From Candidatus Nomurabacteria bacterium (lineage in GTDB: Bacteria > Patescibacteriota > Minisyncoccia > Phycocordibacterales > Phycocordibacteraceae): a stretch of DNA of 54,829 nt. The notes under the pieces are model-generated. The model worked only from the letters and a program-made list of their open reading frames with translations. It ran no database searches and was not told the DNA's origin. The stretch covers positions 1-54,829 of the forward strand of contig CALRBA010000005.1 of NCBI GenBank assembly GCA_943353835.1. Direction: 5' to 3'. This document shows, in pieces, positions 5,092 through 48,250 of this stretch; positions within the stretch are counted from its first letter, which is position 1; the number at the start of each line of letters is the position of its first letter. The position numbers and the translations under genes were made by a program.

Positions 5092-5766
5092 TTATGGAAT
5101 GTCTGAATTAGCGCAGTACTGACGCGCTTCTCGTAGCATTTTCTGTATTGTAACCGTACGCGCTACGGAAAGTATTTCCGCGTCCAAGATAGCTCTGGTC
5201 GGAGTATGTGCGCCGGCATGGGTACTCAAGCTTGAATACGGATATGCAGCTATGCGTTCTCCTAAGAACTGAGGGTCCACAACGTGGCTGACTTTCCATT
5301 TAGGCTCATAGAGCATTATGGGATTGCAGTGCACGTAGCTAATAAGATTTTGGAGGTAATTGTCTGCTGTAGACACATGGCGAGATTGGAATGGTTTGAG
5401 GAAAAGATTACCAACTCGCGCGTGTCGTGAGTTAAAGTATAGCGCGTACGCCGTTCCTATCTTTCGCATAAATGAAGTAATTCCTCCCTCCGAAACCTCT
5501 TTCAATACCAAATGGAAATGATTTGGCATCAGACAGAACGCACCGATGGCAACTAGTTTTTTACCACGAGGAATATTCATCACCTCTTCAAATTTGCGTA
5601 TGCCTATATCGTCACGCCTGAGAGGTAACTTGTCATTTGCCAAGTATAGAAGTTCCAAGAAGCGATGGTAATCTCTAGTATCTTCAAATGCGATGCGCTT
5701 CTCAATGCTACGATTATAGCAATGGTACCACTCACCTACGGTAAACGGAACTTTTCTATTTGTCAT
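5092..5766 (-). CDS. REP-associated tyrosine transposase (RAYT, Y1_Tnp / IS200-like HUH superfamily)
   Basis: YHCYNRSIEKRIAFEDTRDYHRFLELLYLA; HUH motif MPNHFHLVLKE; catalytic-Tyr region YLQNLISYVHCNP. Confidence 0.92.
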   Translation of the reverse strand: MTNRKVPFTVGEWYHCYNRSIEKRIAFEDTRDYHRFLELLYLANDKLPLRRDDIGIRKFEEVMNIPRGKKLVAIGAFCLMPNHFHLVLKEVSEGGITSFMRKIGTAYALYFNSRHARVGNLFLKPFQSRHVSTADNYLQNLISYVHCNPIMLYEPKWKVSHVVDPQFLGERIAAYPYSSLSTHAGAHTPTRAILDAEILSVARTVTIQKMLREARQYCANSDIP

Positions 5767-5777
5767 ATCATCAATTA

Positions 5778-5833
5778 TAAGGTGTCACCTTACGGAGTCA
5801 AGTAAATTATAAAAATAGTAAGGTGACACCTTA
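5778..5833. repeat. pair of 15-bp palindromes directly upstream of the RAYT gene
   Basis: taaggtgtcacctta (5778-5792) and taaggtgacacctta (5819-5833); exact reverse complements of each other. Confidence 0.9.
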
Positions 5834-11893: not shown

Positions 11894-11941
11894 AACAAGG
11901 TTTAACCTTGGGAATCTGAATTAAGGTTAAACCTTGTTTTA
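11891..11941. repeat. palindromic element, composite copy (19-bp perfect arms, 13-nt loop), also terminator-like
   Basis: taaaacaaggtttaacctt-gggaatctgaatt-aaggttaaaccttgtttta; contains the lepA stop codon. Confidence 0.92.
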
Positions 11942-30784: not shown

Positions 30785-30831
30785 GCGCGCATTGTACTTG
30801 TCCTGCAAACTGATGCAAGTTTTCACAAGCA

Positions 30832-30896
30832 GGTGCGACAAAAATGGGCGCGCTCCGGGTCGCTCGGCCAAGTCTTACACCCATTTTTTCCGCACC
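30832..30896. repeat. long imperfect inverted repeat in the lepB-pth intergenic region
   Basis: ggtgcgacaaaaatggg ... cccattttttccgcacc (15 of 17 paired), 31-nt loop. Confidence 0.8.
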
Positions 30897-30932
30897 CGCT
30901 CGCTCAATAGAACAGTGTGATAGGATTCTCGC

Positions 30933-36318: not shown

Positions 36319-36342
36319 TAACAAGGTTTAACCTTGTCCCAA
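36319..36342. repeat. ACAAGGTTTAACCTTGT palindrome upstream of the RAYT gene
   Basis: taacaaggtttaaccttgtcccaa. Confidence 0.92.
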
Positions 36343-36366: not shown

Positions 36367-37044
36367 ATGACACGCTCAATAATTATTGCTCCAGACGAGT
36401 TCTACCACGTCTATAACCGCGGTGTTGAAAAACGAAAGGTGTTTTTATCGCGCACGGATTACGACCGCTTTGTAGCACTTCTGTATCTTGCAAATCAGAC
36501 TGAGCCCGCCGATCTTAAATACCAAGGAAAATCATTTTCTGAAATCACAGAAAACCGAGCAGGTGAACCACTCGTTGCGATTGTTGCTTATTGCATGATG
36601 CCGAACCACTTTCATTTGTTGTTGCGCGAAGTGATTGATGGTGGGGTAGCTCGCTTTATGCAGAAGCTCACAACCGGCTACACGATGTATTTCAACAAGC
36701 GTAATGAACGAAGAGGCGCACTATTCGAGGGAACCTATAAGGCCAAGCACGCTGAGGAAGATCGGTATTTACGTTATTTGATTTCATATATTCATCTTAA
36801 TCCAGTAAAACTTTTGGACCGCGAATGGAAGACGAATGGAATACGAGATCGCGACGGCGCAGAGCGTTTCCTTGAGAAGTATGAATATTCTAGCTATCTC
36901 GATTATTTCTATTTCGACAAGATTCGACCGCAGAAGAAAATAATCGAACAAGAAATAGGACTCGAACTTTTTGAATCATCGGGAGATTTTAAGCAATGCA
37001 CCACAGAATGGCTTACTTACAGCACAGAACAGAACAAGGTTTAA
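36367..37044 (+). CDS. REP-associated tyrosine transposase (RAYT, Y1_Tnp)
   Basis: DEFYHVYNRGVEKRKVFLSRTDYDRFVALLYLA; MPNHFHLLLRE; RYLRYLISYIHLNPVKL. Confidence 0.94.
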   Translation: MTRSIIIAPDEFYHVYNRGVEKRKVFLSRTDYDRFVALLYLANQTEPADLKYQGKSFSEITENRAGEPLVAIVAYCMMPNHFHLLLREVIDGGVARFMQKLTTGYTMYFNKRNERRGALFEGTYKAKHAEEDRYLRYLISYIHLNPVKLLDREWKTNGIRDRDGAERFLEKYEYSSYLDYFYFDKIRPQKKIIEQEIGLELFESSGDFKQCTTEWLTYSTEQNKV

Positions 37045-37051
37045 CCTTGTT
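37033..37051. repeat. 19-nt palindrome overlapping the RAYT stop codon
   Basis: aacaaggtttaaccttgtt; RAYT stop TAA (37042-37044) lies inside. Confidence 0.92.
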
Positions 37052-47098: not shown

Positions 47099-48250
47099 AT
47101 GTTTTGGAAGAAGAAAAGAACGTATTTAGATTATTCCGCTGGGGCTGGCGGGAATGTGTCGTCGCCCCACGCAGAGGGAAGAGGATCGAAGAAGATGTTG
47201 GAAGACGCACGGACAGATATTGCGAGACTTCTTGAAGTACAGTCAGATGATGTGATTTTCACAAGCGGAGCTACAGAGGCGAATGCACTCGCGATTCTCG
47301 GCATCGCCACAGCCGGTGACCACGTGTTCTATCTGCCGAGCTCGCATGCATCTATCGTTGAGAATATGAAACTATTAAAAGAACGAAGAGTTGAAGTGGA
47401 AGAACTGCCGATAAAAGACTGTCGAGTTGATTGTGAGAAGTTGAAGAAGTTGTTACGATCGCAGACAAAATTAGTTGTTATGGACGCAGTCTGCGGAGAG
47501 ACGGGAGTCGTGTGGAATACACGCGAAGTTGCTGAGGTTTTGAGGAAGTTTCGCACGGGCGCACCAGAAAAAGAAAGCGCTCAGGCCGCTAGGCCGATTC
47601 AACATTCTTTTTCTGGTGCGCCCGTGCTCCACGTTGATGCGAGTCAGGCGCCGCTCACAGAGAAGATAACGAGAGCGCATTTCGGCGCTGATATGCTCAC
47701 TCTGGACGCTTCAAAAGTCGGTAATGTTCGCGGTATAGGAGTGCTTATCGCGCATAGAACGATTCCGCTTAAACCGTTGTATCGCGGTGGTGGGCAGGAA
47801 AGGGGATTACGAAGCGGAAGCGAGGCGCCGGAGCTCGCGAGAGAATTCGTGGCCTGCCTCCGTCAGTCCGCGTTTAATCGCGAAGAATTTCGCGCGCGCG
47901 CCGCGCGTGCGCGGGTCAATCTTATTGAAGCGATAACTAGCGTCATTACAAATGTATTTGTTAACGAAAGTCGCGCTCAAGCCCCGCACATTCTCAATCT
48001 CTCACTCCCCAATCGCGACACTGATTACCTTGTAGCACTCCTTGATGAATCAGGATTCGCAATATCCACACGAAGCGCGTGCGAGACAGATTCTGAAGAA
48101 GGCTCGCGAGCCGTTCTGGCTCTTACTGGCGATAGAGAGCGAGCGAAAGCGACACTGCGCATATCGTGGGGACATAACATTCTGGAACGCGAACTTACGC
48201 ATTTTGTTAAAGCTCTTGTGCGAGCAGTATCATTTATTGACAACGAGTGA
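47099..48250 (+). CDS. cysteine desulfurase (NifS/IscS-like, class V aminotransferase)
   Basis: YLDYSAGAGGNVSSPHAEGR; VIFTSGATEANALAI; LHVDASQAP; LTLDASKVGNVRGIGVL; GGGQERGLRSGSEAP. Confidence 0.9.
   Translation: MFWKKKRTYLDYSAGAGGNVSSPHAEGRGSKKMLEDARTDIARLLEVQSDDVIFTSGATEANALAILGIATAGDHVFYLPSSHASIVENMKLLKERRVEVEELPIKDCRVDCEKLKKLLRSQTKLVVMDAVCGETGVVWNTREVAEVLRKFRTGAPEKESAQAARPIQHSFSGAPVLHVDASQAPLTEKITRAHFGADMLTLDASKVGNVRGIGVLIAHRTIPLKPLYRGGGQERGLRSGSEAPELAREFVACLRQSAFNREEFRARAARARVNLIEAITSVITNVFVNESRAQAPHILNLSLPNRDTDYLVALLDESGFAISTRSACETDSEEGSRAVLALTGDRERAKATLRISWGHNILERELTHFVKALVRAVSFIDNE
47553..47627. repeat. 75-nt in-frame hairpin element inside the cysteine desulfurase CDS
   Basis: 23-bp perfect arms gcacgggcgcaccagaaaaagaa / ttctttttctggtgcgcccgtgc; 29-nt loop. 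Confidence 0.93.

Follow-up and report, generated by a model that had tools for sequence, protein, structure and literature searches.

How does a perfect hairpin come to lie in frame inside a gene for a cysteine desulfurase-like protein, and what keeps its two arms complementary? The hairpin occupies positions 47553-47627 of the 54,829-nucleotide stretch of DNA analysed here (the window), where the initial annotation had described a perfect 23-bp inverted repeat around a 29-nt loop, inserted at a point at which NifS and IscS proteins have a short linker.

An in-frame hairpin in a cysteine desulfurase-like gene

Comparison of the arms bore this description out: they are 23 nt each, 100% complementary and separated by 29 nt (Table 1). 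The inverted repeat is real and well above chance expectation, the longest stem of comparable type in 40 dinucleotide-preserving shuffles of the window being 13 bp. The great stability attributed to the hairpin is likewise seen in the RNA folding energy of the segment, -54.7 kcal/mol versus -29.7 +/- 3.3 kcal/mol in shuffles (7.6 SD lower). Both arms are in frame with an open reading frame of 383 aa, as had been claimed, and re-translation returned the insert peptide as originally quoted (the product reads RTGAPEKESAQAARPIQHSFSGAPV at this point).

The host product matches Pfam Aminotran_5 (class-V aminotransferase; E 2e-31) and, with scores below cut-off, the NCBIfam DndA/NifS/IscS models, and its predicted structure (mean pLDDT 86.6) matches IscS/NifS structures with a TM of about 0.8. 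Invariant columns in an alignment of 25 relatives (A4) include His83, Asp180, Gln183, Lys206 and Cys328, of which we take the Asp, Gln and Lys to be PLP-site residues and the Cys to be catalytic, as in NifS/IscS-like desulfurases. Sequence and model together suggest a protein with the fold, the PLP-site Asp/Gln/Lys and the catalytic Cys columns of that family. AlphaFold models the insert as unstructured, with residues 158-168 at pLDDT <50 between a predicted helix (141-153) and a predicted strand (176-180). The best solved homologue has zero residues between query positions 149 and 172, and one orthologue, L149, has the same KFRT...VLHVDASQ flanks and is 20 aa shorter (KFRTAAVLHVDASQ), in agreement with the short linker that had been supposed; this empty site holds only a weak quasi-palindrome.

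Table 1. Features of the hairpin locus, and sequence classes of palindromes in the desulfurase linkers of relatives
Feature	Position or linker	Strand	Basis or remark
Cysteine desulfurase-like gene (NifS/IscS/DndA family), insert host	47099..48250	+	ORF, Pfam, NCBIfam, structure match
5' stem arm, 23 nt, encodes RTGAPEKE	47553..47575	+	outer part locus-specific; inner part A-rich, family-typical
Loop with core-1 variant AGCGCTCAGGCCGCTAGGCCGATTCAACA and inner GGCC-GCTA-GGCC mini-hairpin	47576..47604	+	model R1 match
3' stem arm, perfect complement of 5' arm	47605..47627	+	inverted-repeat comparison
Second core-1 copy in window, core CGCTCCGGGTCGCTCGGCCAAGTCTTAC	30828..30901	+	E 9e-10; outside R1 training set
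Core-1 class	L001 (= window), L002, L004, L153; decayed in L160, L007, L006		by eye
Second loop type	L019, L028, L056		by eye
Third loop type	L158, L036		by eye
Double palindrome AACAAGGTTNAACCTTGTT	L024		equals palindromes dispersed in window
Short-loop GC hairpins	L008, L009, L012, L013, L017, L022		by eye
Unrelated palindromes	L003, L005, L018, L046, L020, L162		by eye

The dispersed core-1 family and its sites

Sequence comparison identifies the hairpin as one copy of a dispersed palindromic element of Candidatus Kaiserbacteria, which we call core-1. The core, conserved and about 28 nt long (CGCTCCGGGCCGCTAGGCCAAGTCTTAC), has a 26-nt variant form as well and sits on a stem of about 20-32 bp, the whole measuring about 75 nt. 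The view of the 75-nt hairpin as a unit stands in part: an insertion is supported, and conservation is confined to the 28-nt core and a short inner stem rich in A and T. A DNA similarity search found copies outside the desulfurase gene in other genomes, and a covariance model (R1) built from 15 copies gave 145 matches in 50 of 93 congener genomes, with up to nine per genome, the genome-wide counts coming from searches and sampled stretches. The desulfurase copy matches R1 with an E value of 6e-20 and is itself among the training sequences; the second copy in the window lies where a gene end overlaps an intergenic space. Of the two parts that the initial annotation had proposed to look for elsewhere, the arm gave nothing beyond weak matches in its own genome, and the core recurs in this second copy and in many relatives, so that the hairpin, present in the desulfurase as described, is not specific to that gene and is one family member at a hot spot. 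Of 95 fetched copies, 86 have a core that shares 80% identity or more with either of two consensus forms, and in some copies the inner hairpin GGCC-GCTA-GGCC is replaced by GGGC-GCTA-GCCC, a compensated change.

Among 384 class members searched, seven copies were found in G491 and one in G407, both outside the genus, and core-1 is therefore not strictly genus-specific; an earlier order-wide pattern search fitted one core variant only. Viral contigs contained no exact match to the core. Ten loci gave no match of the element in Rfam at E up to 0.1, and the window gave none at the gathering score.

No transposase or other mobiliser was linked to core-1. At least 14 genomes, some of them incomplete, have core-1 and no detected Y1 transposase (Y1_Tnp), and a link to Y1 transposases was rejected because the two do not track each other across genomes. 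An IS200-type gene lies near one copy, in L212, where by eye core-1 is not at its end, and the element was likewise rejected as an IS200 end. In a comparison with MITEs, no terminal repeats common to the 95 fetched copies were seen. We infer the mobility of core-1 from its distribution. No pair of near-identical strains that would show a site before and after was found, so that neither mobility nor a template switch has been seen as it happened. The window itself also holds a REP-associated tyrosine transposase-like gene, below the NCBIfam cut-off (36367-37044, + strand), flanked by AACAAGGTTTAACCTTG palindromes at 36323-36335 and 37036-37048; palindromes of this type lie at 11897, 11923, 14837, 14863 and 18953 as well, and elsewhere in the genome. 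A second REP-associated transposase-like gene (5092-5766, - strand) has its own, different palindrome pair (TAAGGTGNCACCTTA) at 5779-5791 and 5820-5832.

Open reading frames of at least 230 aa hold 27 of the 95 fetched copies; about six of the 27 are close to a predicted N-terminus, and the real start of those genes is uncertain. Copies that are clearly internal occur in the desulfurase, in valS and in two genes whose sequences we read as probable prmC and as a probable O-antigen-ligase-like membrane protein. The valS host, an NCBIfam valine--tRNA ligase, contains core-1 by coordinates in about a dozen congeners; empty orthologues exist, and the element is read from both strands. Orientation relative to genes is mixed, with 24 copies in the same and 16 in the opposite direction at co-directional intergenic sites, and 15 and 21, respectively, in open reading frames. 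The consensus core is open in four of six frames, and frame 2 contains a TAG; two copies, L153 and L203, were seen to use frame 2, and both have TCG in its place. Other perfect hairpins lie in predicted open reading frames of the same genome (L059, 5362-5413 and 6762-6811; L060, 680-714 and 19445-19481), and two of these four carry AACAAGGTT.

The desulfurase gene is present in 94 of 99 relatives searched, the named public records being Candidatus Kaiserbacteria and other Paceibacterota/Patescibacteria genomes. Among 66 distinct orthologues, collected partly by the criterion of an open reading frame, the counted linker spans 17 to 50 residues, and strong stems (score >=14) occur in the linker of 16 versus anywhere else in the gene in 7. 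The linker palindromes are unrelated in sequence and fall into several families, their classes being assigned by eye (Table 1); a short pattern for the second loop type found few copies. When the linker is left out of the tree, the classes lie scattered over it, core-1 requiring seven changes, of which at least four are forced by well-supported branches. Linkers and tree together show repeated occupation of this loop by unrelated palindromes. The linkers of L026, L027 and L151 encode EPSRAKRGI or a close variant of it; the underlying DNA, CCATCCCGAGCGAAGCGAGGGAT, has the look of a further dispersed repeat.

The linker of prmC before FLDLCAGSG (L305-L335, congeners) is a third hot spot, with inserts of up to about 70 residues and further loop families, such as SGTLHRSTDRAGGTFSAENDSVPRNR and EERTERDGASKSNFSAEKYA. 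In five prmC genes (L306, L307, L326, L322 and L325), some of which may share one inherited event, conserved codons that follow WWTE form part of the 5' arm, and the 3' arm repeats that arm in inverted orientation. These codons are conserved also in prmC genes that have no insert, which indicates that in these cases one arm is native and the other made from it. The case is extended to core-1 by inference, since these prmC genes carry other loop types.

Origin and upkeep of the stems

In the stretch 10-20 nt out from the core the arms are paired at 79-93% of positions, yet same-arm identity between copies is 27-33% across genomes, against a background of about 30%, and 29-46% within a genome; core-1 stems are therefore mostly locus-specific, and up to 32 perfect stem pairs are found in arms whose sequence is not common to copies. 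Nearer the core the arms are alike: at 5-8 nt they are A-rich and common to copies, and the inner arm at 5-9 nt has some sequence in common. This, with the partial likeness of copies within a genome, implies that part of the stem is borne by the element. Double changes occur in 18 of 21 stem pairs, a covariation equalled in 0 of 500 shuffles. Between the desulfurase copy in the window and that of L153, compared with one bulged base removed from the L153 stem, there are six double changes, all Watson-Crick, and zero single-sided ones; between the window copy and that of L002, three of three double changes retain pairing. In both comparisons amino acids are altered. The initial annotation would have yielded to a protein segment common to relatives and lacking complementarity; what is found is pairing that is kept while the peptide changes. 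Its interpretation as a whole is partly supported.

Something, so it appears, repeatedly builds and repairs these stems, with the protein bearing the cost. Core-1 is probably a dispersed palindromic element lodged in a disordered loop of the desulfurase, with a conserved core, a stem taken from the host locus and upkeep by template switching. The family, the conservation of its core, its locus-specific paired stems, its in-frame occupancy of several genes, the empty-site orthologue and the repeated occupation of the desulfurase loop are what sequence comparison establishes, and the best reading of them is a selfish insert, resembling the Rickettsia palindromic elements, in a permissive protein loop, its stem being built and repaired at the DNA level, probably by template switching, which is known to make and keep perfect stems (PMC8794818). 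The recognised part would presumably be the 28-nt apical core with its mini-hairpin; one flank would be copied inverted onto the opposite side of the core to give most of the stem, as largely arbitrary sequence; and mismatches would be removed later, replicative template switching (quasipalindrome correction) being the likeliest route, which would leave the stem paired while the encoded peptide changes. Core-1 may owe its persistence in the surface loop to being in frame and harmless at that place, and the enzyme presumably gains no benefit from it. A further step, which we put forward tentatively, is that only the 28-nt core of this selfish element is heritable, the stem arising through inverted copying of host flank and the locus-made hairpin serving, as a single strand or cruciform, for spread; loops of essential proteins would then be safe harbours for the element.

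The main rival to locus-built stems, which we consider unlikely, is that an enzyme inserts the core into the tip of a pre-existing hairpin, the locus-specific stem being the old target; both processes may also act in combination. Insertion at the tip would account for perfect hairpins that have 3-4-nt loops and no core at the same sites in relatives, in the desulfurase (L008, L009, L012, L013, L017, L022, L003, L162 and L046), in valS (L184) and in prmC (L280, L281 and L283), and for L018, whose outer stem resembles that of L022 (GCGCGCGAGG) and bears a 17-bp stem and loop at its tip. There is also a precedent in the IS element ISPpu9, which sits in REP palindromes (PMC8450116). Against it, L149, the one desulfurase gene that offers a clean unoccupied site between matching flanks, holds nothing there but a weak quasi-palindrome, L018 and L022 are not sisters on the tree, and the prmC stem reaches codons conserved in genes without any hairpin.

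Template-switch upkeep is not the only way in which pairing could be kept, since selection for a hairpin at the DNA or RNA level could do the same. A structured RNA with a conserved loop, be it a cis-regulatory, terminator or processing hairpin, would explain the conserved apical loop on a variable, covarying stem, the many intergenic copies that are no more than about 10 nt from the end of a gene, and the excess of convergent over divergent sites (12 versus 4), and the lack of an Rfam match would allow an undescribed RNA. Covariation by itself is no proof of RNA function, and we judge this explanation improbable given copies in mixed orientation, intergenic as well as in open reading frames and on both strands in valS, and lying in the middle of conserved genes of unrelated function. 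Bypassed coding hairpins occur in some yeast mitochondria, and a hairpin so stable within a reading frame might go untranslated, whether taken out like an intron or passed over by translational bypass, and the protein would then never contain the segment. Linkers of widely differing length that are open and in frame in the 66 orthologues (openness being a collection criterion) and the altered TAG of the two copies read in frame 2 count against this, because skipping would require neither, and we give it very little weight. Hardly credible, too, is recruitment of the loop for a protein function with the inverted repeat incidental: many congeners have a longer linker than the solved homologues, but pairing persists among orthologues whose loops differ freely in sequence and length, and the model leaves the loop unstructured.

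Comparison with known palindromic elements

Protein-coding palindromic repeats are known from Rickettsia and Wolbachia (Ogata et al. 2000, 2002, 2005, as cited in PMC2229807 and PMC10969869). As described there, these are small, lie both in intergenic sites and in frame in unrelated conserved genes, are tolerated by the protein and inhabit reduced genomes, all of which applies to core-1. Core-1 has both marks of such a repeat, a dispersed family in intergenic and genic sites (the 145 matches in 50 of 93 genomes) and in-frame insertion in conserved genes with empty orthologues (desulfurase, valS and prmC). Judged by those same descriptions, the Rickettsia elements are about 100-150 bp long with terminal inverted repeats, family-conserved arms and a conserved peptide, whereas core-1 has a conserved 28-nt loop in about 75 nt, a stem of its own at every locus, translation in more than one frame and from either strand, and a Kaiserbacteria host. 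REP/REPIN sequences and their RAYT transposases (PMC2817692, PMC3116915, PMC8266576) are likewise dispersed palindromes, and the window has two such transposase-like genes beside their own palindromes, one family's palindrome occurring in the L024 desulfurase loop; core-1, unlike these, has no linked transposase and no common stem sequence, is present without a detected Y1 transposase and, by eye, shows no conserved GTAG-type flanking tetranucleotide.

Template-switch hairpins (PMC8794818) and the homogenised inverted repeats of yeast coding genes, whose creation and upkeep are ascribed to template switching (PMC8604942), share with core-1, on our reading of it, perfect stems made and maintained by copying of one arm from the other and proteins that change as a result, but their abstracts describe no conserved, dispersed tip loop. 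Coding palindromes of Nematomorpha mitochondria are also perfect, translated inverted repeats in protein-coding genes; unlike in core-1, both arms encode conserved protein regions, and the abstract mentions no conserved loop element (PMC6649704). The LIMP palindromes of the Lobosphaera mitochondrion (PMC4524435) are dispersed and have an invariant loop, as core-1 does, but the loop is 7 nt, the stems consist of a repeated pentanucleotide and the sites are intergenic. No account of elements of this sort from Patescibacteria came up in a literature search that covered few subscription journals. The kind of element is thus known from Rickettsia and Wolbachia, and what is new here is a different reduced-genome lineage and recurrent hot spots, with many natural replicates in valS, prmC and the desulfurase across about 90 species. 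With a conserved loop on a locus-made stem, selection acting on a mobile core can be told apart from the mutational upkeep of the stem, and the template-switching origin of hairpins is therefore directly testable on coding sequence, in which each double change alters amino acids too.
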